Shown one piece after another: positions 5,241-39,149 of a DNA stretch of 41,214 nucleotides. Origin of the DNA: Armatimonadota bacterium (GTDB lineage: Bacteria > Armatimonadota > Hebobacteria > CAIYQO01); NCBI GenBank assembly GCA_029553475.1, contig JAKPKV010000108.1, forward strand, positions 1 through 41,214, read 5' to 3'. Under the pieces are notes generated by a model, which saw nothing but the letters and a program-made list of their open reading frames with translations, did no database searches and was not told where the DNA came from. Both the position numbers and the translations under genes were made by a program. Numbering within the stretch: the stretch's first letter is position 1; the number at the start of each line of letters is the position of its first letter.

Positions 5241-6977
5241 TTACCCCGGCACCTTCACCCGGAGCAGCTCCATTCCCGAGGCGGCGTAGAGGTAGCCGTC
5301 CACTACCGCTTTGCCGACCCACGGCCATTTTTCGCATTCGGCGAAGATGTCAATGTCCAGGGCGCCGTCGCGGTAGCGGAGGAAGGTGGCATAGGGGCCG
5401 CAGAGGGCGATCACGCGGCCGTCCTCCAGCGTGAGCATGCCGGCGCGGCGGACGTGGCTGAGCGGGGAGCGGCCGCGCGCCAGCACCCGCAGCGTCGCCG
5501 GGTCCGCCACGAAGAGCTGCTGCACGGCGGAGCCGTAGAGCAGGCCGTCGCCGCCGAGAGTGAGATTGCCGATCTCCACTTCGCCGGGGACGGGGACGGT
5601 CGGCTCCCCGATGACGGCGCGCGCGCGCGGGTCCCAGGTGAACAGGCGGGCGTCCGTCTTCGGCACGGCCACGCCGCCGCCGAGCAGCGCGCTGGCGACG
5701 ATGAGCGGGCCGTCGGGCAGCGGGCACAGCGCGGTGAGGCTCTCCTCGCCCAGCGGGTTGGGCACGAAATCAATGCCGTCCGTCTCCGGGTCGTACCAGG
5801 CGATGACCCCGCGCAGGAAGCCGTAGCCGGCGACGCTGGCGAGGTAAATCCGGCCGTCCGCGCCCAGCGCCATGTCGTACGGGCGCTGCTGGTTCGGCGC
5901 GATGCTCCCGTAGTTGGCGGGGTTGCAGCCGCGCTCGGCGTCCGGCGGCTCCGGGTCGCGCGCCGTGCCGGGATGGAAGGGCCGCGCGGGATCGTAAATT
6001 TGCAGCGTGGAGCCGGTATACGAGGCGATGAAGAGCTTGCCATACGCGTTGAGGAAGGAATACGCTTCCGCGCCGGGGATCAGCCCCAGGTTCGTGCAGG
6101 CGCCCGTCGCCGGGTCATACTGGAACAGGTATTCCGGCTGGATGGAGGTGGCGTAGATCTTGCCGTCCGGGCCGTCGCCCACGCGGTGCAGCACCATCGA
6201 GCTGCCCGGATAGCCGGGCGCCTCCACCGCGGGCGTGCCATCCGCCCAGGTGGTGCGCTCCATGGGCGGCGGCGCCCCCGGCACCGGCAGCAGCTCGCCA
6301 TCCGCGAGCAGGTACGCCGTCTCCCGGCAGATGCCGTAGACCTGGCCGTCGCAGCCGAGGAAGAGGCTCGGAAAACCTTCCGCGCGCAGCGCCGCCGGCA
6401 GCAGGTGACAGAGCGTCCCGGTGGCCGGGTGATAGGCGATGAGGTCCATGCGCCCGCAGCCGACGGAGCCGTAAATCCACCCATCCGGCCCGGCGACGAG
6501 GACGCGCAGGTAGCATTCCGCGTCGTCTACGCGGCCCAGGTCGGTGATATGATCGGTGACCGGATCAATACTGAACAGGTGCGCATTGATGGAGGTGCCG
6601 CCGTAGATGAGGCCGTCCGCGCCGACGGCGTACGACCAGACGAAGGTGTCGCCCGGCACCGCCTGCCCGAGGTCGGTCAGCACGCCGGCCTCCACGTCCA
6701 GCTTCAAGACGTGCCCCTGGTGAAAGGTGCCCAGGTAGAGGTTGCCCTGCGGGCTGACCGCCATCGCCCAGGCGCCGCCTTCGTCGCTCGTCCAGACGTC
6801 AAACGTCGTGCCGTCCGGGTGATAGGCCACCAGGTCGGTGCTCTGGTGATAGAAGTAGTTGACGTACAAGCGCTCGCTCCCGCCCGGCCCGGGGCCGACC
6901 AGCCGCGCCGGCGCTGAGCCGCGCCCGCTGAAGGTGCCGAGCACCTCGAACGATGTTACCTGGCGTTCGGTCGTCAT
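5241..6977 (-). CDS. Beta-propeller protein of unknown function
   Basis: About 578 aa, without a signal peptide. Repeating blade-like segments have the form (A/G)xDGxIYxG or PDGxIYG, for example ADGLIYGG, PDGWIYGS, PDGKIYATS, ADGRIYLAS and GDGLLYGSA, spaced about 50-70 residues apart, typical of a multi-bladed propeller (NHL/SMP-30/quinoprotein-like). No catalytic residues can be named. ATG 6977 is preferred over GTG 6980 because AAGGAGG lies 5 nt upstream. It is the last gene of the minus-strand operon running from 11576 and lies 10 nt after the nitrilase-family gene, so a role in the same carbohydrate pathway, such as a lyase or epimerase on a propeller scaffold, is possible but unproven. 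Confidence 0.7.
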   Translation of the reverse strand: MTTERQVTSFEVLGTFSGRGSAPARLVGPGPGGSERLYVNYFYHQSTDLVAYHPDGTTFDVWTSDEGGAWAMAVSPQGNLYLGTFHQGHVLKLDVEAGVLTDLGQAVPGDTFVWSYAVGADGLIYGGTSINAHLFSIDPVTDHITDLGRVDDAECYLRVLVAGPDGWIYGSVGCGRMDLIAYHPATGTLCHLLPAALRAEGFPSLFLGCDGQVYGICRETAYLLADGELLPVPGAPPPMERTTWADGTPAVEAPGYPGSSMVLHRVGDGPDGKIYATSIQPEYLFQYDPATGACTNLGLIPGAEAYSFLNAYGKLFIASYTGSTLQIYDPARPFHPGTARDPEPPDAERGCNPANYGSIAPNQQRPYDMALGADGRIYLASVAGYGFLRGVIAWYDPETDGIDFVPNPLGEESLTALCPLPDGPLIVASALLGGGVAVPKTDARLFTWDPRARAVIGEPTVPVPGEVEIGNLTLGGDGLLYGSAVQQLFVADPATLRVLARGRSPLSHVRRAGMLTLEDGRVIALCGPYATFLRYRDGALDIDIFAECEKWPWVGKAVVDGYLYAASGMELLRVKVPG

Positions 6978-6987: not shown

Positions 6988-7950
6988 TTACGCGGGCGCG
7001 TCGTGTTGCGCCTGCAGCTCCGCCTCGACGGCCGCCGACTGGCGGAAATACGCGTTGCGCGTTTGCAGGCCGTATTCCGCGCAGAGCTCCGGCACCGTCA
7101 CCCCCTCCAGCGCGCCGAGGGCGAAGACGCTGGCGGGGTAGTTATGGTCCATCGTCACCTGGTGCGCGCGTTCGGCGAGCAGGCGATTGATGCCGCTCTG
7201 CGCGTGTGCCATATCGGCGATGTTATGATCCACGTGGAAGAGCCGCCGGTCGAAATTCAAGCGGGCGGTCAGCACGGGGTGCAGCTTCCACAGGCTGAAT
7301 TGCTCGTAGCGCCGGCCGATGCTCATCAGGTCAAGGCCGGTCATGTCAATGAGCCGGCTGTCCTCTTCGTAGGCGGAGATGAGGCAGGCGCCAGCCATCA
7401 GCGCCCAGTGATTGAGCAGTTGGCCGCCGGTGAACATGGAGTGGAAGCAGATCAGGTCCACCTCTTCCGCCTGCAGCGCCTCCGCCTGGTGCGGGAAGTT
7501 CAGATCGTAGCAGATGGCGTGGGCGATGCGGCCGAAATCCAGCGCGTGGACCACCGGCCCGGCGCCGGGGGTGATGCCGCGCTGCATCTCGCCGATGGTG
7601 GGATGCACCTTGTCATATTGGCCGACGATCTCGCCCGCGCGGTCGAGCGCCACCGCGCTGTTATAGCAGCGGCCGTCCACCACGGTGGGGATGGGGATGA
7701 CGAGGTTCACGCGGCACTCGCGCGCCAGCGCGCCGAAGTGCTTGGTGAGGGGATTCGGCAGCGTTCCGGCCTCGCGCCAGCGCTCGATGGGCAGATTGTG
7801 GTGCAGGAAGAGCTCCGGAAAGATGATGAGATCCGGGCGGGCGACGGCCGCCAGCCGCAGCAGCTCGGTGGCCCGCCGGAGCCCGTCCTCGAACGCCTGT
7901 CCGGGGGCGATGCTCCAGGCGATGGATGAGATGGTGACGTAGCGCGCCAT
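6988..7950 (-). CDS. Carbon-nitrogen hydrolase (nitrilase superfamily)
   Basis: 320 aa, cytoplasmic, hydrolysing a carbon-nitrogen bond in an amide, carbamoyl or nitrile substrate. The Glu-Lys-Cys triad is visible: Glu in FPELF (47 counting from the first of two Met codons), Lys in YDKVHP (115) and Cys in AICYDLNFP (148). The length is usual for the family. Two ATGs are adjacent; the second (7950) is better spaced from GGAGG. The gene sits between a Gfo/Idh/MocA oxidoreductase and a beta-propeller gene in an operon with heparinase-like genes. A role in removing an N-acyl or amide group from a sugar derivative is conceivable, but the substrate is unknown. Confidence 0.85.
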   Translation of the reverse strand: MARYVTISSIAWSIAPGQAFEDGLRRATELLRLAAVARPDLIIFPELFLHHNLPIERWREAGTLPNPLTKHFGALARECRVNLVIPIPTVVDGRCYNSAVALDRAGEIVGQYDKVHPTIGEMQRGITPGAGPVVHALDFGRIAHAICYDLNFPHQAEALQAEEVDLICFHSMFTGGQLLNHWALMAGACLISAYEEDSRLIDMTGLDLMSIGRRYEQFSLWKLHPVLTARLNFDRRLFHVDHNIADMAHAQSGINRLLAERAHQVTMDHNYPASVFALGALEGVTVPELCAEYGLQTRNAYFRQSAAVEAELQAQHDAPA

Positions 7951-7968
7951 CATGCCTCCTCACGTATC

Positions 7969-8136
7969 TCAGAAACTGTTTTCACCATCTGCGCCGCCGT
8001 CTCGCGGGTGCTGCTCGCGCATGGCCGCGTTGGATAGCCTGGCATGTACTCCCCAGTACACTCTCGGCCATCCGCCTTGCCAGCCCCGAGCATCCCGCCG
8101 CGATCCGACAACGCAAATGGTGAAAACAGTTTCTCA
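7969..8136. repeat. Fold-back element A (MITE/REP-like)
   Basis: Perfect 18-bp terminal arms AGAAACTGTTTTCACCAT (7971-7988) and their complement (8117-8134) bracket further nested arms: ATGGCCG (8021-8027) with CGGCCAT (8065-8071), and a central hairpin TGTACT-CCCC-AGTACA (8045-8060). The right tip overlaps the stop codon of the oxidoreductase gene at 8134. Its tip resembles that of element B at 22588. It holds no ORF of its own and could be a non-autonomous element or a large terminator or mRNA-stability structure. Confidence 0.75.
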
Positions 8137-9315
8137 CAAGGCGATGGGCAGGTATTCGTCCGGCCCGAACGGCAGCGGCATGCCCAGGCGGCACGATTCG
8201 TAGGCTTTCAGCACCAGCATGGTGGATTTCGCCGCCTCTTCGGCGTCGCAGGGGGACGGGCCGTCGCCGCGCACGCACGCCGCGAAGCGGTCCAGGTGCT
8301 GGTAATGGCCTTTGTCCGGCCCGCCGATGAAGAAGTCGTTGCGGCCCTCGCGCAGGCGCTCCTGAATGAGCTGCTGCGCGGAGTCGTAAAAGCCCTCGAT
8401 GCCGGGGCGCTGGGTGGCGGCGCGGGGGTCGGGGCTGGCATAGACGCGGCGGAACGGCTCGTCGGCGATGCCCGTCACGCGGATTTCCATGCAGTGGTCA
8501 ATGGCGATCATCGCCCCACCGCAGGTGATCTCGACGAGCTCTTTCGGGTAATCGAGGGTGCCGACCGCCGAATGGGGCAGGGTCGCCAGCGAGCCGTCTT
8601 CGTAGCGGATGATGATGGTGAAATTGAAGCGCGCCGAGCCCATGGTGTACACCTCGACCGGGCGCAGCTCACCCATGAAGAGGTTGGCCAGGTCAATGAA
8701 GTGGGTCATCTCGTTGATGATGGCGCCGTCCGCAAAGGCCCACGGCTTCCAGGTGAGCACGTCGTCGTTCACGCGGATCATGACGCAGGTCTGGTCTTCT
8801 TCGGGCAGGCGCGGGCGCAGGGTGGAGTTGCGGTCGAAGCGCCAGGGGGGAATCGCCGGATTCGCGCGCCAGCGCCGGAGGATGTCGGCCGCGTCCATAA
8901 TGGCGGGAGCCGAGCGGCGGTTGTGCCCGACGCAGAAGGGGATGCCCGTCTCGCGGACGACGGTGAGGATGCGCGCCACGTCCTGCGTGGAGCCGGCCAT
9001 CGGCTTCTCGACATAGACCGCCTTGCCGGCGCGGGCGGCGGCTTCGATGGCTTCCGCGCGCAGCGTGTGCGTGGTGGCGAGCACCACCAGGTCGAGCGCC
9101 GGGTCCTGCAGCAGGGCATGGTAATCGGCCGTGGTGTGCTCCACGCCGTAGCGCTCGGCCTGCTCGCGCAGCAGCGGCGCGTTGATGTCGCACAGCCAGC
9201 GCAGGTTCAGGCCGGGATTGGCGGCGGAATTCGGGATGTGCGTGGTGGACGCCAGCATCCCGCAGCCGATGACGCCCACGTTGAGCGTGCGGATGGATGC
9301 GTCAATCTGTGACAT
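8134..9315 (-). CDS. Gfo/Idh/MocA-family NAD(P)-dependent oxidoreductase
   Basis: 393 aa, cytoplasmic sugar or cyclitol dehydrogenase. The N-terminal Rossmann fold shows GVIGCG (residues 14-19), followed by the EKP motif in YVEKPMAG (about 101-108), the hallmark of this family, and VGHNRR, a common substrate-side motif. The length is typical. Substrates in this family range from inositol to uronic and amino sugars, so the exact reaction is open. A purine-rich GGAAGGGA stretch precedes the ATG. It lies 23 nt after the upstream heparinase-like gene and is co-oriented with it. Its TGA stop lies in the tip of fold-back element A. Confidence 0.88.
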   Translation of the reverse strand: MSQIDASIRTLNVGVIGCGMLASTTHIPNSAANPGLNLRWLCDINAPLLREQAERYGVEHTTADYHALLQDPALDLVVLATTHTLRAEAIEAAARAGKAVYVEKPMAGSTQDVARILTVVRETGIPFCVGHNRRSAPAIMDAADILRRWRANPAIPPWRFDRNSTLRPRLPEEDQTCVMIRVNDDVLTWKPWAFADGAIINEMTHFIDLANLFMGELRPVEVYTMGSARFNFTIIIRYEDGSLATLPHSAVGTLDYPKELVEITCGGAMIAIDHCMEIRVTGIADEPFRRVYASPDPRAATQRPGIEGFYDSAQQLIQERLREGRNDFFIGGPDKGHYQHLDRFAACVRGDGPSPCDAEEAAKSTMLVLKAYESCRLGMPLPFGPDEYLPIAL

Positions 9316-9338: not shown

Positions 9339-11576
9339 TTATTTCCAGGTCAGCATGAATTCCACCTGCGCGAACGCGGTGGCCTCTTCGCTCTCGTAGC
9401 GCACGTGATCGAAGGCCGTGAAACCGCTAGAGCTGGCATACGACCACACCACCGGCGTCTCCTCGATGCGGGCGGTGAGCGCCGGGACGCCGCGCGGGGA
9501 GATCGCCAGCGTCGGCGCGCCGCCGAAGATCGCGCGCCGGCCATCCAGCGCCACGCCAATCTCCCGCTTCCCCTGGAAGAGCCAGCTCCAGCGGTGCGGC
9601 GCCGCCGCCGCCACGGTATCCCGGCAGAGGATATGCGCGCCCGGATAGAGCAGCAGGTCGCGGGTATAGGAGAGCAGGCCGTCGTCCTCCGGATACGCGG
9701 GCGCGAGGTTCAGGCGAATCCAGCCGGCGTGCTCCGCGAGGTCCCAGCGCGCGAAAAGGATCTCTTCGCCGCGGTGGCGCCTGGCGGGGATGGACATCGG
9801 GTAGCCGATATCGCCGTATTGGCCGCGGCCGTCCACCAACAGGCAGGTGCGCAGCGCGGATTGCAGCTTGTAGCCGCCGTCGGGCGTCACCAGCCGCGGC
9901 GCGGCGCCCAGCGACACGGTGAAATGCCCGGCGCCGGGGGCCTGGCCCATGCGGTCGCACGGGCCCTGCGCGCGGCGGTAGGCATGATACCCCGCGAAGG
10001 GCGCGCAGCGGATGGTCAGGGTGACGTCGTCCACCGGGTCGCGATAGGTGGCCAGCCCGCCGTCCGCGAAGAACGACAGCGGCTCGGGAGTCGGCAGCGG
10101 CGCCGGCGGCACCGCCGGGCGGTAACTTTGCAGCCCCTGCAGCGCGCCGAGGTGGAAGCCATACGCCTGCGTCGTATGGTAAAACGGGCGCTCACCGGTG
10201 GTGAGGACCGCCTGCTGCAGCGCGGCGGCGCGGCCGTCGCCGTATTGCGCCGCGATGGCGTTGAGGAAGGCGTTGCCGCCGATGAGCGGGTCGGCGCTCT
10301 CCAGCAGCATCAGGTGGTCCCGCGGGCGCACCACGCGCAGCAGGTAGTCAATGATGGCGGGGAACTGCGGCTGTTCGAAAATATCCTCGCCGGTGAGCGC
10401 CAGCAGCGCGTCCCGATACCCGGTCACGTCATCGAGATACAGGTACAACTGGCAGTAGTTGCTGAGCGGGATGACGCCGTCGCGGGGCATGGCGTCGAGG
10501 CTGCGCCGCACGCGCGGCACGGCGTACGCCGCCCAGCGCTCCGCTTCCGGCAGCACGCCCAGCAGGTGGAGGACGCCGTCGGCGTAGGCGAAGAGCGCGC
10601 GCCAGCCGTGGTCCTGCAGCACCGAGCCGCCCCAGTAATCGCGGTTGAGCAGCGCGTTCGCCATGAAGCGGTCGCCCTGCAGCCGCAGCTTGTCGCGGAG
10701 GCGCTGCCGGCGGTCCGCGCCCAGCTCCGCGCCCAGCGCGTGATAGGCATGCGCCAGCGCGCGCAGCACGAAGGCGGCGCCCATGTCGCCGTCGTGGCCG
10801 TAGCCGTCCTCGCGCGGATTGCCCCAGTGCGGCCGGGCGATGGCGGCGTCCACCACCTCCAGCGCGGCGGCCAGCGCCGCCGCGTCGCCCTCCAGGCGGT
10901 GGCGGGCGATGAGGAAGGGCAGGTGAATCGGGGCGGGCGTTTTGTGCGCGTTCACCCAGGCAAAGGCGTCGCGCAGCGGCCCGGCATAGGCGGCATGGGT
11001 GGTCGCCAGCTTCGCGCGCAGGTCATCCCAATAGGCGGGATCGGCCTGCCGTGCCGCCGGCCCGTTGTGCGAGGAGACGGTGAAGGGCTCCAGCGTATCC
11101 TCAGGATCGGCTTCCAGCAGGACGGCGGTCCAGCGCAGCCGCATCGGGCGGTAGGGCTCCAGCGTGAGGGTGTGCGTGCCGTCCTCCGCCAGGAAGGCCA
11201 TGCGCCCGCGAAAACGCCGCGCGGCCATATCCTCCAGCGACACGCGCTGGAAGAACCACAGGCCGAGGCGCCGGCCATCCAGCGCGACCCAGTAGGCGGG
11301 CACCAGCGGCCGGTTCTGATCCTGCAGGTTGAAATCCCACGGCCCGGTGCGCTGGCTCACGTTGCCGAACTCGTTGAGGACGAGATACAGCGCATCCCAG
11401 TCGAAGTCGCCGGCATCGGCGATGACGGAGAGCTGGTAGAGGCCGGGTCCGGAGGCGAAGGTGTAGCTGATGGCGTCCCCGGTCATCTCCGCCGGGAGCA
11501 GGCCGGGAGCGCCGCCATCGGTACTACAGAAGGCGCAAGCCGTCGGGATGGTCGCCGGTGACGCCGGCTCTGCCAT
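9339..11576 (-). CDS. Large heparinase II/III-like (polysaccharide lyase-like) protein
   Basis: 745 aa. There is no clear signal peptide, so it probably acts in the cytoplasm. The N-terminal ~170 residues look like a beta-sandwich, the middle (about 180-480) is alpha-helical with GYGHDGDMGAAFVLRALAHA and an (alpha/alpha) toroid character, and the C-terminal part is beta-rich (GWIRLNL, WSWLFQGKREIG) as in the heparinase C-domain. The family assignment rests on fold pattern and neighbourhood and is less certain than for the heparinase gene at 11869. GAGGAG lies 6 nt before the ATG. First gene of the operon that continues through 8134, 6988 and 5241; a promoter and a LacI-type operator lie just upstream. 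Confidence 0.62.
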   Translation of the reverse strand: MAEPASPATIPTACAFCSTDGGAPGLLPAEMTGDAISYTFASGPGLYQLSVIADAGDFDWDALYLVLNEFGNVSQRTGPWDFNLQDQNRPLVPAYWVALDGRRLGLWFFQRVSLEDMAARRFRGRMAFLAEDGTHTLTLEPYRPMRLRWTAVLLEADPEDTLEPFTVSSHNGPAARQADPAYWDDLRAKLATTHAAYAGPLRDAFAWVNAHKTPAPIHLPFLIARHRLEGDAAALAAALEVVDAAIARPHWGNPREDGYGHDGDMGAAFVLRALAHAYHALGAELGADRRQRLRDKLRLQGDRFMANALLNRDYWGGSVLQDHGWRALFAYADGVLHLLGVLPEAERWAAYAVPRVRRSLDAMPRDGVIPLSNYCQLYLYLDDVTGYRDALLALTGEDIFEQPQFPAIIDYLLRVVRPRDHLMLLESADPLIGGNAFLNAIAAQYGDGRAAALQQAVLTTGERPFYHTTQAYGFHLGALQGLQSYRPAVPPAPLPTPEPLSFFADGGLATYRDPVDDVTLTIRCAPFAGYHAYRRAQGPCDRMGQAPGAGHFTVSLGAAPRLVTPDGGYKLQSALRTCLLVDGRGQYGDIGYPMSIPARRHRGEEILFARWDLAEHAGWIRLNLAPAYPEDDGLLSYTRDLLLYPGAHILCRDTVAAAAPHRWSWLFQGKREIGVALDGRRAIFGGAPTLAISPRGVPALTARIEETPVVWSYASSSGFTAFDHVRYESEEATAFAQVEFMLTWK

Positions 11577-11621: not shown

Positions 11622-11633
11622 TCATGCGCATGA
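11622..11633. promoter_or_regulatory. LacI-type operator, site 1
   Basis: TCATGCGCATGA is a perfect 12-bp palindrome with a central CG-containing step, as in LacI-family operators. It sits just downstream of the -10 of the 11642-11671 promoter, overlapping the predicted start of transcription. Its 11-nt core TCATGCGCATG recurs at 18093-18103, at the same place in the promoter of the neighbouring operon. Binding by the LacI protein encoded at 18171 is inference. Confidence 0.65.
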
Positions 11634-11641
11634 ACGGCCCG

Positions 11642-11671
11642 ATAGTAGCGCGTTCCAGCCTCGCCTGTCAA
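11642..11671 (-). promoter_or_regulatory. Sigma70-type promoter of the 11576-5241 operon
   Basis: Read on the minus strand: TTGACA (11666-11671), an 18-nt spacer, then TACTAT (11642-11647). The -35 is a perfect consensus match and the -10 matches 4 of 6. The palindromic operator lies immediately downstream. The 5' leader to the ATG at 11576 would be about 60 nt. Confidence 0.6.
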
Positions 11672-11686
11672 GCGGCATCAGCGGTT

Positions 11687-11872
11687 GTAACCGTTCAGTC
11701 TTGTCAGCATGTCGCCGAGTGATGGCACACCTAACCCCCCACCCCCCTTCCCTGAGAGGGAAGGGGGAGTGATTGGTATGCAGATCCGGTGCTCCCTCCC
11801 CGCTCAGGGGAGGGGCGGGGGGAGAGGTGGGCGGACAGACGCCACAGCATGCGGACAAGACTGAACGGTTAC
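11687..11872. repeat. Fold-back element C
   Basis: Arms of 25 bp, starting GTAACCGTTCAGTCTTG (11687-11711) and their complement (11848-11872), match at 24 of 25 positions. The interior holds two G/C-rich palindromic tracts (CCCCTTCCCT/AGGGAAGGGG near 11750-11767 and CTCCCCGCTCAGGGGAG near 11798-11815). The right arm includes the TAA stop of the heparinase gene (11869-11871). The sequence CGTTCAGTCTTG in the arms is also found alone at 98-109. Confidence 0.75.
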
Positions 11873-13866
11873 CAGCGGTTGAGGCTCGACCAATATTCCC
11901 GGAATGCCGCCGGCAGCGCCGTGCCGCGATACGGCGCCAGCAGCACCCGCGCGCGGAAGGGCAGCGGGCGCGCGCGGGCGTAGAGCGCCAGCGCCGGCGC
12001 GGGCTCGAGCTGGTTCACGCGGTCGGCGTACCAGCCGGCGCGCGGCTCCTCCTGCCCGCATTCTACCCGCGCGTCATCCCAGGCCGTCGCGTCGAAGAAC
12101 AGCGCCAGGTTGGCATCGGGGAATGCCGTATGGGCGATGCCGTCCGCGACCGCCAGCGCGCCGGGGGCGAATTGGAAGCGCGATTCGATATCGTGCGCGC
12201 CGTCGCCGGCCAGGGTATCTTCCAGCAGCCAGTACCCCGGATCGGGCACGAAGCGGATGGTGCGATGGTGGCGCACGGGGATCTGCTCGGCGCCGTAGCC
12301 GAGCGCGTAGACGGCGCCGGCGATGATGACGCCGTCATCGCCGACCTCCCAGGTCAGCGGAAGCGGCCGCCGCGCCACCCAGTGCTCCGGGTGTGCGCGG
12401 CTGTGCTGGTCGCGGTTGTCCACGCGAATGGTCGAGTGCGCCTTTGTGCTCATCAGGTAGTGGTACGGCGAGCCGGGGGTGTGGTCATACCGGTAGCGGC
12501 CGGGGTCCACAATGAACGCGCGCCCGTAGGCCGACAGCCAGAAGGAGAGCGCGTCCTCGTGCTGGTGCGCGTTGCCGTAGGGGCCGCCGTCGAAGGCGAG
12601 ATACAGCTCATCGCGCCCGTGCCGGCTGCCCTGGCGCAGGAACATCACGCCGCCGTAGGGGTAGTACGTGCTGACGAGCTCCGCGGTGGCGTCTTCGCCG
12701 AGGAGCGCCCGCACGCGGGGGCGTTCCAGACCCGCCCGCGTCCACGCGCCCAGCCCGCCGTCGCCGTCGTTGAAGGCGAGCTGTTTTCCGTCAGGGGTGA
12801 GCGTCTGGCGGACGTAGCGCCACATGCCGCGCAGGACCTCCAGGCAGCGCGGCGGCGCCGTCAGCCCCAGGCAGTCGAGGGCTTCCAGCGTGTGCGCCAG
12901 CTCATGGCACACGCAGAAGTGGTAATGCGGCGTCAACTCGTGCTGCACGCCGTCGGGCAGCACCTGGATGTCCAGCGTGGCGGCGAGGCGATCGAGGGCG
13001 ACGGTGGCCAACGCGCGCGCGTCGCGCAGGCCGGGGAAATGCGCCAGCGCGCGCAGCTGGCACCCGGCGCCGGACGTCAGGCCGTTGCCGTGCCCGCCTT
13101 CGGGGATGATGATCTCCAGCCAGCGCAGTTGATCGTGGACGCTCTTGATGATGCGCAGCAGATCCACCGGCGCCAGCAGGTCGGGTATCCGCGGCAGCAG
13201 CGCCGCCAGCGCCTGTCCCCAGGCGACGAGATGGAAGCCGACCTCCAGGTGGCTGAGCCAGATGTGCGGCTTATGGACCGACAGCCGCCAGCTCGCCGGG
13301 TCGGGACCGGGGATGAAGGAGTCGGCGATGTCGGTATCCGCGATGAAGGCGAGGATGAGCTGCACCGCTTTTTCGGCATACGCGCGCTCGCCCGTCGCCG
13401 CGAAGGCGCCCAGCAGCGTGCGCAGAAAGCCGAAACGGTTGAATTCCCACGGCCAATGCGGGCAGTCGCCCGGATCGGCATTCCAGTCAATGCGGTCGGG
13501 AAGCTGATGCGTCACCCCGTTGAAGGTGAAACGGTGTTCCAGGATGGCGTCGGCCTCCGCCGGCGCGCCGGCATACGCCTCTACCGGCAGGCGCGCCGGC
13601 AAGTCGGCGTAATACGCGCGGTACGCGTCCCGTACCGCGTCCGGCGCGTCCGCGCCGGGAAGGTCGAGCAGCGCCAGCGTCCGTCGGATGCATTCCGCGG
13701 CCGGCAGTCCGACATGATCGAAGGAGTGCAGGACGGCGAAGACCTGCTGGCGATTGCGGCCGTCAATATCGCAGCGGGTGATGCCGTTGGGATCCACGCT
13801 GAGCACCTTGGCGAGGCGCGCGGCTTCAAAGGCGTTGCGGGGGGCGCGGCGGGCGGTCATGGTCAC
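11869..13866 (-). CDS. Heparinase II/III family protein
   Basis: 665 aa, no signal peptide. The N-terminal (alpha/alpha) toroid contains SFDHVGLP, HWPWEFNRFGF (137-147), IIPEGGHGNGLTSG and DGVQHELTPHYHF (305-317), matching the family motif around the catalytic Tyr/His. The C-terminal beta-sandwich contains GNAHQHEDALSFW (431-443) and VDPGRYRYD, the other conserved block with the metal/catalytic His. Such enzymes cleave uronate-containing polysaccharides or oligosaccharides by beta-elimination; the cytoplasmic location suggests an oligosaccharide substrate, such as alginate- or heparin-like fragments. It starts 9 nt after the upstream TIM-barrel hydrolase gene and is the last gene of that operon. 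Its stop codon is inside fold-back element C. The family is firm; the substrate is not. Confidence 0.85.
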   Translation of the reverse strand: MTMTARRAPRNAFEAARLAKVLSVDPNGITRCDIDGRNRQQVFAVLHSFDHVGLPAAECIRRTLALLDLPGADAPDAVRDAYRAYYADLPARLPVEAYAGAPAEADAILEHRFTFNGVTHQLPDRIDWNADPGDCPHWPWEFNRFGFLRTLLGAFAATGERAYAEKAVQLILAFIADTDIADSFIPGPDPASWRLSVHKPHIWLSHLEVGFHLVAWGQALAALLPRIPDLLAPVDLLRIIKSVHDQLRWLEIIIPEGGHGNGLTSGAGCQLRALAHFPGLRDARALATVALDRLAATLDIQVLPDGVQHELTPHYHFCVCHELAHTLEALDCLGLTAPPRCLEVLRGMWRYVRQTLTPDGKQLAFNDGDGGLGAWTRAGLERPRVRALLGEDATAELVSTYYPYGGVMFLRQGSRHGRDELYLAFDGGPYGNAHQHEDALSFWLSAYGRAFIVDPGRYRYDHTPGSPYHYLMSTKAHSTIRVDNRDQHSRAHPEHWVARRPLPLTWEVGDDGVIIAGAVYALGYGAEQIPVRHHRTIRFVPDPGYWLLEDTLAGDGAHDIESRFQFAPGALAVADGIAHTAFPDANLALFFDATAWDDARVECGQEEPRAGWYADRVNQLEPAPALALYARARPLPFRARVLLAPYRGTALPAAFREYWSSLNRW

Positions 13867-13875
13867 TCTCCCGGC

Positions 13876-16173
13876 TCACGGTACGCCGTTCGGGCCACGG
13901 TATTCCACCACCAGCACCGTCCAGAAGCGCGTTTCGGGCAGCGTCAGCGTGACGGCGGCGCCATTGGCCGTGAACGGCACCGCCTCCTGGCGCGCGTCCG
14001 GGATGGGGCTGAGCGCCCAGATGCCTTCCACGCGCGCGCCGGCGGGCAGGGTGAGGGTGGCGGGCACGTCGCGCAGCGGCGGATTCGTCTTTTGCGACAG
14101 ATCGTGCGCGGCGTCGCGCCCCGGCGGCACGATGAGGTGCAGCACCAGCCGATGCCGGTCGTCCCCCAGGTCCAGCCGCCGCGCCAGCCGCTCCCATTGC
14201 ATCAGCTCGACCGGCTTGCCGAAGCTGACCACCGCGTTCGGGTTCGCGAGCGGGCGCATGCTATTGTTCCAGAGGAACTCCGCATAGCGCAGGGCGAAGG
14301 TGGGATATTGCCCCACCTGATGCTCCATCCAGCCATAGTACGGGTGCGCGCCGGCCGCCAGCAGCAGCGTGCAGATATACAGCTCGTCGAGTTTCGTGCC
14401 GTAGACGTTGTTCGGGTGGTACGGCTCTAGCCCCGAATAGCCGGCGGGAGGATCGTAGCAGATGCCGTATTGCCCGCCGTACTGCCAGACGACATCGCGA
14501 TACGTCAGCGCTTTGTCCAGGTAGGTGGAGAAGCGGTAGTGGCGGTCGGCGATGTTGCGCGGCTCTTCGTGCATGAACATGCCGCCGTTGCTGAGCATGG
14601 TGGTGTAGGCCTCCGGGGTGACGTTGTCGGAGACTTCGGCGTTGTAGCCGAACTGGTAGGTCGGCACCGCTTTCTCCACCAGCGCGCGGATGCGCTTCGT
14701 CGCGTTGATGGTCCACGCGGAGGTGTTGCTATAGACATCGTAGCGGATGCCGTCCCACCCGAACATTGTATGCGCGTCCACGTTCTCTTGCGCGTGCGTG
14801 GCGACGATGCCGTCCGATTTGCCCCAGGCGATGGACGCATACGGCCACACGCTCATCGGCTTAATCTTCGACTCCTCCATCAACGGCCAGTGCTCGAACC
14901 AGTCGGAGAAGAATTCGCCGGCGGTGAACCAGTCCGGATGCTTGCGCATCAACTCGAACGCGGGCGGGCCGCTGCAGGCGGTGATGAGCGAGTAGAGGGT
15001 CGCCGCCATGCCGCGGCGGTGCGCGAACTCGATGTAATTTTGCATCGCGGAGATGGAGCCGGGATAGCAGAGGTGTCCGCCGAAGAAGAGCTCGGTGTCC
15101 GGGGTGAAGTCGCCGAAATCATCCGGCGCCCAGAAGCCGCTTTCAAAGCCGGTATAGCCTTTCGCGCGCAGCTCGTCAATGGTCTGTTCGGCCACCGCGC
15201 GGTCGCGGAAACGCACCGAATAGTTCGTGCCGGCAAAAATCGCCGTCTCCCAGATATTGTTCGCGACGCCGAAGACCGCGCGCCCGGCGGCCGGCGACGC
15301 CGGATCAATCGCCGCCGTCGCGCGTAGCTCCGCGCCCCAGTACAGCCCCGCGGTGGCGAAGGCGCCGGTCCAGCGCTGACTGCCGCCGGCGGGAATGTCG
15401 AGGGTGACGGCGGCGATCTGCCGCTGCGCCCGCACGCCGGAGAGCAGCTCAACGGTGAGCGCCGCGCGCGCCGGCGTGTGCGCCAGGTTCGTCACGATGA
15501 CGGCCGCCGCCCCGGTTTCGCCGGGCTTGTAGACGATCTTATCCACTTCGACCTGCACCGCGAGGGGGGAGAGCGGCTCGATATATGGTGTCAGCGCCGC
15601 CAGCCGGTAGGGGATCTTCGGCAGGTCGTTCAGCGCGATGGAGCCGTCTTCCGCCACCGCGGGCATGTTGAGAAGGTTGTCCAGCTCCTCTTCGCCATCC
15701 GCGTCGGGCCCAGCGGGCGCGGCCAGGGTGCGCTCGCGCAGCTTTTCCGCCAACGGCCCGGCGATGGCCCACTGCACCGTGTAGGCCGCGTGGCCGCCGG
15801 CGGCGGTGAAATCGAGCGTCAGATCGGTGAATTCGTCCGCCGCCGGGAATTCGATGATCTTCACCGCGCGCGTCGCCCGCTCGGCGGTGAGGATGACGGC
15901 GATCTCGCTGATGCGCAGGTCGGCCAGCGGCGCCAGCGCCAGCGGCACGTGCAGGCGGTACCGGCCCGGCGCCAACGGCGCGCGGCTGGAACCGTTCAGC
16001 AGCACCCCCTTCGTCGCGGTGTCTACGTCGGCGGCGACGCACCGGCCGCTCGCGCGCGCCTGCGCCACGTAGGCGGCGCCGGCCTCCTTCGCCAGCACCG
16101 GGGCGTCGAGCGTCGCCGCGCGCGCGGTGAAGGCCAGGAGGGAGATGGTCGCAAGCATCACGAGTATGCGCAT
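13876..16173 (-). CDS. Secreted TIM-barrel glycoside-hydrolase-like protein
   Basis: 765 aa. A signal peptide is clear (MRILVMLATISLLAFTARA, cleavage after ARA). Residues about 25-300 are beta-sandwich-like. The middle resembles a (beta/alpha)8 barrel: FRDRAVAEQTIDELRAKGYT, RRGMAATLYSLI, GWDGIRYDVYS (an Asp at the end of a barrel strand, as in retaining alpha-glycosidases) and FGYNAEVSD. The C-terminal ~100 residues form a beta-sandwich, as in GH13/GH66-like enzymes. The exact GH family cannot be assigned by eye. It lies 9 nt from both neighbours, between the GATase-like/HEAT gene and the heparinase gene, so it probably trims the same extracellular polysaccharide. Confidence 0.6.
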   Translation of the reverse strand: MRILVMLATISLLAFTARAATLDAPVLAKEAGAAYVAQARASGRCVAADVDTATKGVLLNGSSRAPLAPGRYRLHVPLALAPLADLRISEIAVILTAERATRAVKIIEFPAADEFTDLTLDFTAAGGHAAYTVQWAIAGPLAEKLRERTLAAPAGPDADGEEELDNLLNMPAVAEDGSIALNDLPKIPYRLAALTPYIEPLSPLAVQVEVDKIVYKPGETGAAAVIVTNLAHTPARAALTVELLSGVRAQRQIAAVTLDIPAGGSQRWTGAFATAGLYWGAELRATAAIDPASPAAGRAVFGVANNIWETAIFAGTNYSVRFRDRAVAEQTIDELRAKGYTGFESGFWAPDDFGDFTPDTELFFGGHLCYPGSISAMQNYIEFAHRRGMAATLYSLITACSGPPAFELMRKHPDWFTAGEFFSDWFEHWPLMEESKIKPMSVWPYASIAWGKSDGIVATHAQENVDAHTMFGWDGIRYDVYSNTSAWTINATKRIRALVEKAVPTYQFGYNAEVSDNVTPEAYTTMLSNGGMFMHEEPRNIADRHYRFSTYLDKALTYRDVVWQYGGQYGICYDPPAGYSGLEPYHPNNVYGTKLDELYICTLLLAAGAHPYYGWMEHQVGQYPTFALRYAEFLWNNSMRPLANPNAVVSFGKPVELMQWERLARRLDLGDDRHRLVLHLIVPPGRDAAHDLSQKTNPPLRDVPATLTLPAGARVEGIWALSPIPDARQEAVPFTANGAAVTLTLPETRFWTVLVVEYRGPNGVP

Positions 16174-16182
16174 GGGGCCTCC

Positions 16183-18057
16183 TCACTTCGTCCGCAGGCG
16201 CTGTGCCAGCTCGGCCAGCGCCGGCAGCTTCGCGCCGGCCAGCGCGTCCAGCGCCTCCGCGGGCGCGGTGAAGTCCTCGCCGCGGAAGGCGCGGCCGAAG
16301 GCGGCGAAGGCCGGCAGCGCCGCGCGGGGCGGCGTCTCCGCCGCCAGCCGTTTCGCCAGCGCCGGCAGTACGGCCGGCGGCACGGTGGCGAGCTGGCGGT
16401 ACAGCAGCGCGTCGCGCGAGCGCACCCGCGGGTAGGTCTTCCACAGTTTCGCGATCAACTGCTGCGCTTGGTAGCTCTTCCGCGCGTATTGCGGGAGGTC
16501 CACCACCGTCATGTTGCGCACCATCACGTAGTACAGCTCCATCAGCGCGTCCACGGCGGGCGCGGCGGCGGCGGCGTCGCCGCAGCGCACCAGCGCCAGC
16601 AGCGCCGCCAGGTTCAGCTCGTCCTCCTGGGTGGGCACGGTGGGGAAGTCGGCCGGATTGCTCACCGACCTGCTGATCTGCTGGCGATAGCGGCGGAGGT
16701 GCGGTATCGCCGCCGCGTCGCCCAGGTTGCCCAGCCCTTCCAGCGCGCCCAGCCGCACGGCGTAGGCCATGTAGGCGGGATCGGTGGTCATCTTCCCGCC
16801 GCCCAGTAGGTCGCCGCCGAGGCCGCCCAGCCCGCCATCGTCATCGTCGCCGCCCGGCGGCTCGCCGGTGCGCAGCGCGGTCAGCAGCGTTTCGCGGGCG
16901 GCCGGCGCGCACTGGCCGAGGACGCGCAGGCCGAGCGAGACTTTGTGCGGCAAGCCGCTCTCGATCAGGAGCCGCGCGGCGGCCAGCGCTTCGGCGCCGG
17001 CGTAGCGCCGGATGGCCTGGGCATAGGCATCCACCGCCTCCAGCGCCGGGTCGTCGTCCAGCGCATGGACCGCGCGCAGCAGCAGCGCGGCGCCCGCGTC
17101 GTCGCGGCAGCAGTCGGCCGCTTTCATCAGCCGCGGGGCGACGTCGGCGAATTTTTTCACGCCCGGACCCAGCAGCGCCTTCGTCAATTGCTGGGTCACG
17201 GCGGGGTCTACCGGCGCGGGGGCGCGCGTGGGGGCGGTGAGCCAGGTGATGGTCTCCGCCACGACGGCGGGCCAATCCGCCCATGCCCACAGCGGCGTCT
17301 GTCCGGCGGGGGGATCGCCCATCACGCTGCCGGCGAAGACCGCCACCCGGCCCTTGCCGAAGGCGCCGGTCACCAGCAGCGGCGTCTCGCCGGCAGTCAG
17401 CAGCACCTGCGCGCCCGGTTTCGGGGTGAGCGCGTGATACCAGTAGACGCGCGGCGTCGCCGCCCACCCCAGGCCGCGCAGGGCGGCGGGGGCGTCCTTG
17501 CCGGCGGTCATCGGTGCCCCGTCGGCGGTGTGGCGCAGCTCCGGCTTGGCCGGGAAGGCCACGGGGGTGATGTCGCCGAAGGCGGTGGCGCCGTACTGGC
17601 CGTCGTACGCATAGTTGCCGCCGAGGAACAGGAGCGCGCCGCCGCGCTCGACGTAATCTTTCAGCATCTTCCGCTGGATGGGCGGCATGGCGGCGGCGTT
17701 GATATTACACAGGATGATGAGGTGGTGGCGCATCAGGGCGTCATACGTGCCGGGGAAGTAGCGCAGGCCATTACTCACGCCGGTCTCCCAACTGTTGACG
17801 TGCCAACTGTCGGAGACCGCCGCGCCGCCTAGCCGCGCCAGCGCGCGGTCCACCCCGTAGTACTGGTACCACAGACCGCGTACCGCCAGCACCTGCAGCG
17901 GCGCCTGCGGGGGGATGAGCCAGTCGGCCGGGGGGACGACGCCTTTCGCGGCCGCGGCGGCGTCATCCGTCTCGGCGAGCAGCGGCACGCAGAGCAGCGC
18001 GAGCAGCAGCACAGCGTGCCATCGGCCCGCCTGTCGGCCAGACGAAACAGTCGGCAT
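16183..18057 (-). CDS. Exported GATase1-like protein with HEAT repeats
   Basis: About 624 aa from the preferred ATG 18057, which has GGGAGG 6 nt upstream and directly gives a signal peptide (RWHAVLLLALLCVPLLA); the frame is open further upstream to ATG 18102. The N-terminal third resembles glutamine-amidotransferase-like or ThuA-like flavodoxin-fold domains (LIILCNINAAAMPP, LKDYVERGGALLFLGG, GKGRVAVFAGS), probably non-catalytic. The remainder is helical with HEAT-like repeats (LGALEGLGNLGDAAAIPHL) and a Gly/Asp-rich linker (GGDDDDGGLGGLGG). A binding or scaffold role outside the cytoplasm is likely; the ligand is unknown. First gene of the operon 18057-11869, under a promoter with a LacI-type operator. 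Confidence 0.65.
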   Translation of the reverse strand: MPTVSSGRQAGRWHAVLLLALLCVPLLAETDDAAAAAKGVVPPADWLIPPQAPLQVLAVRGLWYQYYGVDRALARLGGAAVSDSWHVNSWETGVSNGLRYFPGTYDALMRHHLIILCNINAAAMPPIQRKMLKDYVERGGALLFLGGNYAYDGQYGATAFGDITPVAFPAKPELRHTADGAPMTAGKDAPAALRGLGWAATPRVYWYHALTPKPGAQVLLTAGETPLLVTGAFGKGRVAVFAGSVMGDPPAGQTPLWAWADWPAVVAETITWLTAPTRAPAPVDPAVTQQLTKALLGPGVKKFADVAPRLMKAADCCRDDAGAALLLRAVHALDDDPALEAVDAYAQAIRRYAGAEALAAARLLIESGLPHKVSLGLRVLGQCAPAARETLLTALRTGEPPGGDDDDGGLGGLGGDLLGGGKMTTDPAYMAYAVRLGALEGLGNLGDAAAIPHLRRYRQQISRSVSNPADFPTVPTQEDELNLAALLALVRCGDAAAAAPAVDALMELYYVMVRNMTVVDLPQYARKSYQAQQLIAKLWKTYPRVRSRDALLYRQLATVPPAVLPALAKRLAAETPPRAALPAFAAFGRAFRGEDFTAPAEALDALAGAKLPALAELAQRLRTK

Positions 18058-18081
18058 GGGCGCCCTCCCGTCCGCGGAGCC

Positions 18082-18105
18082 GCGCATGAGGTTCATGCGC
18101 ATGTA
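18082..18105. promoter_or_regulatory. LacI-type operator, site 2
   Basis: The perfect palindrome CATGCGCATG (18094-18103), extended as TTCATGCGCATGTA, lies beside an inverted half-site GCGCATGA (18082-18089). It shares the 11-mer TCATGCGCATG with site 1 at 11622. It lies shortly after the -10 of the 18118-18146 promoter, in the 5' leader of the operon, where repressor binding would block transcription. Confidence 0.65.
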
Positions 18106-18170: not shown

Positions 18171-19358
18171 TCACGCGCGCGCCGGTCCGGTGGAGGCGCG
18201 GGGGATCAGCTCGGTCGGCAGGCATAGCTGCACGCGTTCCGCCGCGCCGCCGCTGACTTGTTCGATGATGAGGGCGGCCGCCTTGCGGCCAATCCGCATG
18301 AGCGGCAGATGGACCGAGGTGAGCTGGTTGTGCCCGTAATCGTCGAACATCGGGTCTACGTCGTCAAACCCGACGATGCTGTAGTCGTCCGGCACGCGCA
18401 GGCCGGCCAGGTTGAGGAGGTACCAGGCCTGAATGGCGCTGGAGTCGTTGAGCGCGAGGATGGCGGTGATCTCCGGATGCGCGCGCAGGAAGCGCATCAG
18501 CGGGTGGTTGGCCGCCTCCCGCGGCGGGTGGGGGGCGACCGGCGGGGTGCCCAAGGGGTTCCACAGCGGATCGAGCCACTCCTGCGCGACGTCGAAGAAG
18601 TGCAGGTGCGCCTCCGGGTCCAGGCGCGCTTCCCGCAGCGCCTGCCGGATGCCGTCCCATCGCCACTGCTGGATGCGCTGGTCCTGCTTAACCTGGCGCA
18701 GGGTGAACTGCAGCAGGTGACGGTGGCCGAGATCGAGGAGATGCTTCGCGGCCTGGTAGGCGCCCTGGCGGTCGTCCGCCATCACCGAGCTGTTCAGGTC
18801 GGAAGGCCACATCAGCGAGATCATCGGGCGCTGGCCGAAGCCGGGGGTCTCGCGCAGGTGCGCGTAGACGGGCCGGAAACGATTCTCGTCAATGGTGTAG
18901 AGGAGGCCGTCCACGTCGCCGCGGTGGAAGATGGTCGGCAGCGCCACCTCGGCGGGCGTGGCCGCCGTCTTCGGCAGATGCGACAGCACCACCGCGTAGC
19001 CTTTCGTCATCAGCACCTCGACCACGCTCTGGAAAATGGCGGCGTAGTAGTGCATGTGCAGGTAGGTCGGGTCCATGGAGACGGCGATGACGTGATTGAG
19101 CACTGCCTGCCCGTGGCGGTGCATCGCCAGCCGGCGCGCGGGCGTATGTACCGAGGGGTCGTACCCCATCTCTGCCGCCACCGCGAGAATTTCGTCCGTC
19201 GTCTCCGGCGAGATGCGCGGATCGCGCCGGAGCGCCAGTGACACGGTCGTCTGATGGATGCCGCAGCGCTCGGCGATGTCGCGCTGGGTGATCATGGCGT
19301 GTCGCCGGGACGGGGCAGCAGCCGAAGAATCAAGCTCCTGTTTGCGTTTGTGACTCAT
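18171..19358 (-). CDS. LacI-family transcriptional repressor
   Basis: About 395 aa. The helix-turn-helix begins at MITQRDIAERCGIHQTTVSLALRR in two overlapping parts (ITQRDIAERCGI, HQTTVSLALRRDPRIS), followed by the hinge region and a periplasmic-binding-protein-like sensor domain (VIAVSMDPTYLHMH, GDVDGLLYTI, NSSVMADDRQGAYQAAKHLL, ILALNDSSAIQAW, YSIVGFDDVDP). The short basic N-terminal extension before the HTH is unusual. ATG 19358 is chosen because AGAGGA lies 7 nt upstream; ATG 19376 is an alternative without a clear Shine-Dalgarno sequence. It has its own promoter (19427-19455). It probably represses the two minus-strand operons downstream through the shared TCATGCGCATG palindromes and is released by a sugar ligand; this is inferred from position. 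Confidence 0.92.
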   Translation of the reverse strand: MSHKRKQELDSSAAAPSRRHAMITQRDIAERCGIHQTTVSLALRRDPRISPETTDEILAVAAEMGYDPSVHTPARRLAMHRHGQAVLNHVIAVSMDPTYLHMHYYAAIFQSVVEVLMTKGYAVVLSHLPKTAATPAEVALPTIFHRGDVDGLLYTIDENRFRPVYAHLRETPGFGQRPMISLMWPSDLNSSVMADDRQGAYQAAKHLLDLGHRHLLQFTLRQVKQDQRIQQWRWDGIRQALREARLDPEAHLHFFDVAQEWLDPLWNPLGTPPVAPHPPREAANHPLMRFLRAHPEITAILALNDSSAIQAWYLLNLAGLRVPDDYSIVGFDDVDPMFDDYGHNQLTSVHLPLMRIGRKAAALIIEQVSGGAAERVQLCLPTELIPRASTGPARA

Positions 19359-19426: not shown

Positions 19427-19455
19427 AGTGTAGAGCCAGGCGGCGGAACTGTCAA
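19427..19455 (-). promoter_or_regulatory. Sigma70-type promoter of the lacI-family gene
   Basis: On the minus strand: TTGACA (19450-19455), a 17-nt spacer, TACACT (19427-19432). The predicted transcription start is about 60 nt before the ATG. No copy of the TCATGCGCATG palindrome is seen here, so autoregulation by that site is not evident. Between this promoter and element D (19630) I see no further gene. Confidence 0.6.
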
Positions 19456-19629: not shown

Positions 19630-19826
19630 GAAAATGACACATTTCCGGAAATTACTATACGGCTATGGGCCTCTTTTGTCAAGCATTTCGAGCATTTTCT
19701 CCCCAAAACGCCCCGGGTATCGCCACGGACAGCAGCCCTCGGGGGCAAAATGCCCCCCATGCAGGCGTCAGAGAGCGCCAGACGACACATTTTTCGCCCG
19801 CTGGCTTCCGAGAATGTGTCATTCCC
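19630..19826. repeat. Fold-back element D in the divergent lacI/prepilin intergenic region
   Basis: Arms 19630-19650 and 19806-19826 pair at 17 of 21 positions, with the 11-bp core AATGACACATT (19633-19643) and its exact complement AATGTGTCATT (19813-19823). The interior has smaller palindromes such as GGGGCAAAATGCCCC near 19742. It ends about 50 nt before the prepilin-like gene at 19874, so it may form part of its 5' control region. Confidence 0.6.
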
Positions 19827-22768: not shown

Positions 22769-24784
22769 TCACGGCGCCGGCGTCAACTGGATGGCGTCCA
22801 ATCCCAGCAGGATGCCGCGCTGAATGAGGCCGGCGTAGCCGGGATGCGAGGTGAAGGTGATGGTGTTCTCACCGGCGGTGAAGGGGAAGGTCCCGATTTT
22901 CAGCCAGCCGCCGGGGTACGCCAATGGCACGCCCGTCTCGGGAGTCTGGCTGTTGAAATGCGGAGGCTCTTTCGGGCCGGGGATGGGCGATCCGTTCACC
23001 GAGACATCCCATAATCCGCCGGACGGCCCGCAGAGGGGCCGGATGCGCAGCAGGTAGGCGCCGGCCGTCTCCACCGGCACGCGGAAGGTGATGCTCTCCC
23101 CATAGCCCAGCGGCGCGAAGCTGACGAAGGCGTTGCCGCTCGCCAGATAGCGCTCGTCGCGGTCCTCCACCAGCAGCAGGTCGCCGCCGGTGACCGTCGC
23201 CGTCGTCATCAGGGTTTCCGCTTCGTAGACGTTCGGCTCGCGCGGCGCCAGCAGCAGCGCTTCCCGCGTCACCGGCGGCAGGGCGTCGCGCGCCGCCAGG
23301 TCGCGATACCAGTAGACGACGCTGCTGTAATCCGTGCCCGCGAATTCATCTTTCGCGGCATCGAGCACTAACCGCGCGCCCTGCGTCCAGTCCGGTGCGT
23401 CGGTGAGGAAGTAGCGATAATCGCCGTAGGTGCCGCGCGCGGCGAAGTCCATGATGGGGATGGCGGAGAGCGGGCTGTCCCAGTGCGGCCCGCCGTACCA
23501 GCCGCCGTAGTAGTACTGCATCAGCGCGGCGTCGGCGATGCTCGCCTCCGCTTCGCCGTCGCGGTAGAGCAGCATGCGCGAGTGGCGCGCCGCGTACTTT
23601 TCCGCCAGCGGGCAGCCGCGGATATCCAGGCTGTAGCCCACCAGCTTCCCCGCGCCGGTGGTTTGCAGCAGGGTGTAGACCTTGTCCGCGCCGACCTGGC
23701 GGTCGCGTTTCCAGCGCGCGCAAAAACGCCCGGCGCCGTCCACCGGCGGGCCGGGGCGCACGGTGAGCGCATACTCCAGCTCGGGAAGCTGGTGGCCGCT
23801 GAGGTTCTCCAGCGTCACCCGCGCGCCGTCGGCGTAGGGCATCGGCAGGTAGCACCAGTACCAGCCGTCTTTAGCGCCGCCGCCCACCGGCAGCACCTGT
23901 CGCTGCCGGGCGCCGCCGATGCTGCCGCACAGCAGCCCGACGGGCGCTTCCACCGAGGGCCGCGTCTCGCCGTCCCAGTAGGCGCGCAGCACCAGCAGGC
24001 GGTCAATGGCCACGTGCCAGGGTTTCGCGCGCAGCCGCAGGCCCACCACCGTGCCCCCGCCGGGCGCGCTGAAAATCTCCGCCGTCTCCCGCGCGCCGAG
24101 CGCCAGCGCGCCCGCCTTCACCTGATCGGCGGGACGGCGATGCGGCATCTCGCCCATGTTGCGCCAGGCGGCGGCCGCCGCGCGGACCGGCGCTTCGTGC
24201 TGCTGCAGCGCGTCGAGCGCGAAGGTCGTCACCGGCGTGTTCGCCGGGTAGCGGCGGTAGAGGACGGTGTAATAGCCCCACGGCCGCGCGGGGTCGTGCT
24301 CCCACACCACTTTGACGCTGCGCGCGTAGGGGATGGGGAGGTAGCAGGCGTTTTTATGGCCCGGCGCCCGCAGCGCGAAGGGGATGAGGAAGGGGAAGGT
24401 CTGCGGGTAGTTGGCATCCAGGTTGGCGTTTTTTTCGGTGTTCCAGCGCTGCCAGTCCGGGTAGAGCTGCTCCAGCGGGATGTCGAGCTGCGGCGCGGCG
24501 GCGCCGTCGCAGTAGACCTTCAGCCGCCCCTGGATGCTGTTGATGGACAAACGCTCGATGCAGCCCGGCCCTTCCGACTCCAGCAGCACGCACTGTCCCG
24601 GCGCGGCATCCACCAGCTTGCCGGCGTGCGCGCCGCGCCAGTTGGACGCTTCGTGCAGGCGCCCGCCATCCAGCACCGGCAGGTCGGACCAATCCGCCAG
24701 CCGCCGCACGTCGCCGATGGGCGCCGCCAGCGACCCGACGCCCGCGCACAGCAGTCCGATCAGTACCAGAGACGGATATCGCAT
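22769..24784 (-). CDS. Secreted GH172 (DUF2961) glycosidase-like protein with C-terminal CBM-like domain
   Basis: 671 aa. A signal peptide (LVLIGLLCAGVGSLAA) is followed by two DUF2961-type jelly-roll halves: YCDGAAAPQLDIPL, CYLPIPYARSVKVVWEHD, YYTVLYRRY, then LPVGGGAKDGWYWCYLPMPYA and ARVTLENLSGH. GH172 members act on alpha-D-fructofuranosides or alpha-D-arabinofuranosides. A C-terminal module starting NVYEAETL with GESITFRVPVETAGAYLLRI resembles CBM6/35-like sugar-binding domains. GGAGG lies 7 nt before the ATG. The gene begins 24 nt after the upstream lyase-like gene, so they form one operon. The family call is good; the substrate is unknown. Confidence 0.75.
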   Translation of the reverse strand: MRYPSLVLIGLLCAGVGSLAAPIGDVRRLADWSDLPVLDGGRLHEASNWRGAHAGKLVDAAPGQCVLLESEGPGCIERLSINSIQGRLKVYCDGAAAPQLDIPLEQLYPDWQRWNTEKNANLDANYPQTFPFLIPFALRAPGHKNACYLPIPYARSVKVVWEHDPARPWGYYTVLYRRYPANTPVTTFALDALQQHEAPVRAAAAAWRNMGEMPHRRPADQVKAGALALGARETAEIFSAPGGGTVVGLRLRAKPWHVAIDRLLVLRAYWDGETRPSVEAPVGLLCGSIGGARQRQVLPVGGGAKDGWYWCYLPMPYADGARVTLENLSGHQLPELEYALTVRPGPPVDGAGRFCARWKRDRQVGADKVYTLLQTTGAGKLVGYSLDIRGCPLAEKYAARHSRMLLYRDGEAEASIADAALMQYYYGGWYGGPHWDSPLSAIPIMDFAARGTYGDYRYFLTDAPDWTQGARLVLDAAKDEFAGTDYSSVVYWYRDLAARDALPPVTREALLLAPREPNVYEAETLMTTATVTGGDLLLVEDRDERYLASGNAFVSFAPLGYGESITFRVPVETAGAYLLRIRPLCGPSGGLWDVSVNGSPIPGPKEPPHFNSQTPETGVPLAYPGGWLKIGTFPFTAGENTITFTSHPGYAGLIQRGILLGLDAIQLTPAP

Positions 24785-24808
24785 GGTCGTTCCTCCGGTC
24801 GGCGCGCG

Positions 24809-39147: not shown

Positions 39148-39149
39148 CC

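Follow-up and report, generated by a model that had tools for sequence, protein, structure and literature searches.

The window, by which we mean the whole 41,214-nucleotide stretch of DNA that was analysed, contains a series of minus-strand features that run, in the order of transcription, from a LacI-family regulator gene through the candidate operator O2, three genes and the candidate operator O1 to a second gene run (Table 1). Three genes lie behind O2 and four behind O1, fewer than the ten or so that the sequence-only reading had tied to the two sites. The first gene behind O2, for which the start codon is a presumed one, was scanned against Pfam as a longer frame reaching 18102; the weak PDB matches of the second gene product are cycloisomaltooligosaccharide glucanotransferases; and the 745-aa protein at the head of operon 1 drew no match in searches of Pfam, NCBIfam and the PDB. 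Each operon had also been credited with a TTGACA promoter and a site directly after its -10 element. This holds for P1 (11671-11642), which passes a promoter consensus scan and of which the -10 element ends 8 nt ahead of O1; at the equivalent position the sister species, represented by one same-genus genome (G001, 78% complete), has TTGACA-17-TAATAT. P2, on the other hand, combines a perfect TTGACA (18146-18141) with a weak -10 element, TAAGGT (3/6), leaves a 13-nt gap to O2 and falls below the threshold of that scan.

Table 1. Features of the locus and its surroundings, numbered along the window
Feature	Position	Strand	Description	Basis or remark
Candidate operator O1	11622..11633	.	TCATGCGCATGA, perfect 12-bp palindrome, central CG	45 bp before ATG at 11576
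Candidate operator O2	18093..18104	.	TCATGCGCATGT	35 bp before probable ATG at 18057
Promoter P1	11642..11671	-	TTGACA-18-TACTAT	consensus scan, 10/12
Putative promoter P2	18118..18146	-	TTGACA-17-TAAGGT	read from sequence
LacI-family regulator	18171..19295	-	374 aa, recognition helix GIHQTTVSLALR	
LacI gene promoter	19427..19455	-	TTGACA-17-TACACT	
Operon 2, gene 1	16183..18057	-	GATase1-like/ThuA-like, 624 aa	Pfam GATase1_like, 48.2 bits
Operon 2, gene 2	13876..16173	-	weakly glycoside hydrolase family 66-like, 765 aa	Pfam Glyco_hydro_66, 24.7 bits
Operon 2, gene 3	11869..13860	-	heparinase II/III-family polysaccharide lyase	sister ortholog 81%
Operon 1, gene 1	9339..11576	-	745-aa protein, family unassigned	sister ortholog 84%
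Operon 1, gene 2	8134..9315	-	Gfo/Idh/MocA oxidoreductase	profile matches
Operon 1, probable gene 3	6988..7953	-	carbon-nitrogen hydrolase	preceded by 180-bp gap; presumably co-transcribed
Operon 1, probable gene 4	5241..6977	-	578 aa, weak DUF6923 match	presumably co-transcribed
Foldback element	11685-11874		about 190 bp, inverted ends AACCGTTCAGTCTTGTC	
Second palindrome	19641-19652		ATTTCCGGAAAT (or TTTCCGGAAA)	before prepilin-like genes
CRISPR-Cas-like genes	36863-41090		presumably type I-E	e.g. protein starting MLIDIHAIQNHSPANLNRDD

Two features of the surroundings may be recorded in their own right. The MITE-like foldback element is inserted between the heparinase gene and P1 and is missing at the sister-species promoter; near-full copies are found on C193 (93%) and twice on C13 (85%), with incomplete ones at further locations. 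The second palindrome recurs before prepilin-like genes at L144:7884 and L152:1340, and is perhaps a second shared operator.

Inspection of the sequence confirmed that both O1 and O2 are present where the sequence-only reading had located them, while its description of the shared core as an 11-base palindrome had to be amended: the common 11-mer TCATGCGCATG is itself non-palindromic, and the palindrome is the 12-mer TCATGCGCATGA or the 10-mer CATGCGCATG, the latter forming the core of O2 at 18094-18103. The half-sites of O1, TCATGC and GCATGA, form an even palindrome with a CG centre, as expected of a LacI-family operator. The strict palindrome measures 10-12 bp, and the outer bases are symmetric only in part.

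A scan of the genome to which the window belongs (5.27 Mb, 194 contigs) returned ten distinct copies of TCATGCGCATG, eight of which lie between genes (C4, C5, C13, C57, C77, C193 and two on C36), while the copies on C9 and C43 read as inside genes. Given that approximately 17.6% of the 486 kb fetched is non-coding, this bias is pronounced (binomial p = 3e-5); the gene calls come from a script of ours that is based on codon usage, was trained on eight genes of the window and may misplace starts. Promoter sites with TCATGCGCATGN are O1 and O2 in the window and those at C4, C5, C13, C57, C77 and C193. Read by eye, the site comes shortly after the -10 element at both window promoters, at C4 and probably at C13, lies between the -35 and -10 elements at C5 and C57 (with TATAGT or TATACT directly after), and lies over or near the -35 element at C77 and C193. 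Six of the eight promoter sites are 35-47 bp from the start codon and that of C13 is 24 bp from it, some of these starts being presumed ones; the C5 site is 15 bp ahead of the start chosen by the gene caller and 47 bp ahead of a likelier ATG. At C193 the operator stands 367 bp before the gene (L069:7929-8295), whereas the sister species has it at a distance of about 43 bp; in the own genome roughly 320 bp have been inserted between promoter and gene. Eight copies of the site thus exist away from the window, yet six of them occupy promoter gaps, for the most part those of catabolic genes; they add to the regulon and do not speak against it.

The sister genome contains nine copies, eight of them between genes, including one (C377) between convergent genes. 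Five orthologous promoters (window 11622/C350, C5/C532, C57/C266, C77/C654 and C193/C26, own genome first), whose first proteins are 82-88% identical, keep all 12 of 12 bases, the degenerate twelfth base included, although the whole aligned promoter regions are 56-75% identical; for O1 the conserved copy is at L076:1835. An orthologous promoter for O2 was not found in the sister assembly, where the first gene behind O2 has a best protein match of 48% identity and the contigs break in the corresponding region. The edges of the motif appear to be sharp, since CATGCGCATG without the outer T/A is rarely intergenic (3/22, i.e. 2/13 in the own and 1/9 in the sister genome) compared with 16 of 19 when the outer bases are present (Fisher p = 6e-6). 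We also tried widening the motif to one internal mismatch and dropped this version, as such 12-mers showed no intergenic enrichment in the own genome (9/34, p = 0.13). Individual one-mismatch sites at C21 and C35 may be weak sites. One-mismatch variants occupy promoter gaps at L071:9265, L071:12660, L071:7335 and L070:8931 (TCATGCGAATGA twice, TCATCCGCATGA and TCATACGCATGA), both copies of TCATGCGAATGA following the TTGACA of two prepilin-like genes; these are possibly weak sites or the sites of another regulator.

Those target genes of the own genome that match a family are mostly catabolic. In the window they encode heparinase II/III, GH66-like and GATase1/ThuA-like proteins; Gfo/Idh/MocA oxidoreductases recur in the window, at C57 and at C77; C57 adds a xylose-isomerase-like TIM barrel, Amidohydro_2, BNR-repeat and URO-D proteins, and C193 a SASA-type sialate O-acetylesterase. 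The sister species contributes a 3-keto-disaccharide-hydrolase/laminin-G protein and a weakly ThuA-like protein. The genes heading the operons at C4, C5, C13 and window 9339-11576 showed no family match, and several target proteins had none in a search of solved structures. Judged by these families, the regulon looks like one for the use of polysaccharide-derived sugars, perhaps via oxidised intermediates.

The LacI-family gene that had been noted beside the operon is indeed there, on the same strand and with its stop codon 66 bp from O2. Its product has the N-terminal helix-turn-helix (Pfam LacI, 36.0 bits; cut-off 27) and the C-terminal sugar-binding-protein-like domain (Peripla_BP_3, 91.2 bits; cut-off 26.5) of the family, the LacI scan having used a longer frame to 19376. 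The hinge helix of the family carries a leucine (AA-54) that enters the central CG; in the alignment the hinge of this protein contains ARRLA, shifted by two residues relative to some paralogues. In many LacI paralogues, this one and genes of L139-L166 included, the YDP turn and the hinge ARxLA are two residues further apart than in others. The ortholog in the sister species (C176, L166:6135-6686) is cut by the contig end, so that adjacency to a site is not visible there; it is 77% identical over the overlap with an identical recognition helix, and its neighbours are 85-89% identical to window 22769-28012. An initial view, from a strict E-value search, that the sister genome lacks this ortholog was wrong. 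Among wider relatives in named genomes, the nearest 11 loci share 36-42% identity with it and come from records of Armatimonadetes or candidate division WS1, a few being paralogues from G001 and from G002, a genome of the same family and another genus; CATGCGCATG occurs in none of these 11 loci and in 3 of 80 loci overall (L197, L229 and L247).

Which regulator reads the site is a matter of choosing among paralogues, of which the own genome has 20 and the sister genome ten; seven orthologous pairs, the window gene included, are common to the two. (G002 has 59, three times the number in the own genome.) Simple arithmetic gives a probability of about 0.005 that any of 20 LacI genes would lie within 80 bp of any of eight sites. 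According to the part of the published recognition code on which we draw, arginine at AA-20 pairs with G at NT-6 (PMC2978694). The window LacI has leucine at AA-20 and the site T at NT-6, in agreement with that code, and by eye the rule holds in 10 of the 11 other LacI-palindrome neighbours considered here: arginine goes with G in C119a, C83, G1_C38 (the ortholog of C83) and, in one half-site, L188; another residue goes with a base other than G in C13b, C186c, C90, G1_C149, L186 and L189; and G1_C77 is the exception. The underlying alignment was intended for 33 proteins, with C46b and G2_C344 left out and the helix of C46b read later, and the recognition triples were read from the printed sequences and not assigned automatically. 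Several paralogues adjoin other CG-centred palindromes (such as TTAAAGCGCTTTAA, TCGTAACCGGTTACGA, GGCAAGTGGACCGGTCCACTTGCC and, in both species, GGAAGCGCTTCC). An attempt to eliminate all other shared paralogues through palindromes of their own worked for the C83/C38 pair only.

We regard the adjacent LacI protein as most likely the regulator, and as the best candidate to bind the site, because its gene lies so close to O2 and is kept in both species, its recognition helix is identical in the two and the code fits. The assignment is less sure for two reasons, namely that paralogue elimination is incomplete and that no autoregulatory site was found within 260 bp upstream of the LacI gene, allowing up to three mismatches, in either species. 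Both leave room for the alternative that operator and regulon are real and are read by another protein, either a LacI paralogue (C159/C399, C2b/C91 or C5/C333) or, for example, an XRE-cupin regulator; we consider this unlikely, though it deserves to be taken seriously. Six other LacI orthologs are common to both species, five of them without an assigned operator, and the XRE-cupin gene, 3.9 kb away from the C193 site, keeps its locus in the sister species with 75% identity. None of the shared paralogues, however, carries the site upstream or lies near one, and the XRE-cupin gene has no adjoining copy, the sole copy in L069 being at 8296. An even, CG-centred palindrome is, moreover, a hallmark of the LacI family in the sections of the survey used here (PMC4052901). 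The code itself argues against C57, C119b and C83, which have arginine at AA-20 where the site has T at NT-6; C159, C2b and, less clearly, C5 are possible readers by the same standard.

The sequence-only reading had described a regulon confined to this locus. Its core fares well, in that position and conservation point to an operator and the neighbouring LacI protein is the likeliest reader; its confinement does not. A regulon limited to the two operons of the window would account for two sites and one LacI gene being together on one contig, and is very improbable in view of the six further promoters on other contigs and the orthologous promoters of the sister species, in which the sites of C5, C57, C77 and C193 are letter-identical. 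Beyond the genus the picture changes: in G002 three of 14 copies are intergenic, and 77 of 291 genomes of the phylum contain the 12-mer, one of them in seven copies, the maximum. Raw copy number was dropped as evidence, as counts of three and four recur in the phylum. In the five other genomes of the phylum that are richest in copies, 15 of 23 sites were readable and 12 of these are inside genes; the three intergenic exceptions all belong to G123, which is possibly ill-served by a gene caller that may miscall genes in genomes of other composition. As copies in other phylum genomes are mostly inside genes, promoter use of the site looks like a trait of this genus. Functionless chance matching, with which the spread of the 12-mer in the phylum and a non-significant window-only count (five matches with at most one mismatch against a shuffle mean of 2.0, with 9 of 100 shuffles reaching five) are compatible, is the least credible reading of all, given a strong promoter-gap bias in this genus only and a site kept letter for letter in five orthologous promoters.

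On the strength of promoter placement and conservation, we are fairly confident that TCATGCGCATGA serves as operator for a repressor of the LacI family, the most likely one being the product of 18171-19295, and that it would define a regulon dispersed over at least eight promoters of this genome. Bound as a dimer to the CG-centred palindrome within the core promoter, the repressor would sterically block RNA polymerase at about eight promoters, presumably repressing them, until released by a ligand that we expect to be a sugar or sugar derivative. A wider reading, which we offer tentatively as a possibility less probable than its negation, is that of a genus-level, near-global LacI regulon of an uncultured Armatimonadota lineage, in which one 12-bp operator would coordinate scattered operons for the oxidative breakdown of polysaccharide-derived sugars (Gfo/Idh/MocA, ThuA-like, isomerase-like and 3-keto-disaccharide-hydrolase-like), with proteins of 745, 716, 747 and 1079 aa, which belong to no known family, as core members. 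The operator offers a handle on function in a lineage that metagenome-derived records represent here, as it would place family-less catabolic genes under one response together with lyases and oxidoreductases. Furthermore, the pair of LacI and operator falls outside the well-studied TVSR group and could help to extend the recognition code. The mechanism is ordinary and unsurprising; the instance is new.

Compared with LacI regulons of sugar catabolism, as set out in the portions of Ravcheev et al. (2014; PMC4052901) available to this comparison, the system is alike in combining a helix-turn-helix with a periplasmic-binding-protein-like domain, in its even CG-centred palindrome and carbohydrate-type targets, and in distance: over 75% of the sites described there lie 30-140 bp ahead of the start codon, and those found here, of which six of eight conform, mostly lie 24-47 bp before starts. 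It differs in lacking an autoregulatory site, where 72% of the factors studied in that work are autoregulated, in its shorter strict palindrome, where most sites span 16-22 bp, and in its eight scattered promoters, where one or two operons are usual (PMC4052901). With at least eight promoters it departs from the few targets and single pathway of a local regulon. Judged by title, publications retrieved for the CATGCGCATG string contained no report of a LacI operator, and among the matches listed for Armatimonadetes and LacI none concerned such a regulon. PurR of E. coli is one of the nearest relatives of the window LacI with a solved full-length structure. PurR has threonine at AA-16 and reads CA at NT-5/NT-4, in which the window LacI is alike, and has histidine at AA-20 with G at NT-6, where leucine and T are found here. 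Global LacI regulons such as those of CcpA, FruR, PckR and GapR are defined in the sections of the survey consulted by more than 15 genes in at least seven operons and several pathways (PMC4052901); the eight operons found here reach the operon threshold, the gene number, about 20 by our own caller, and the pathway breadth being estimates. The targets here, in contrast to those global systems as that source portrays them, look to belong to the peripheral catabolism of polysaccharides and oxidised sugars and not to central metabolism.
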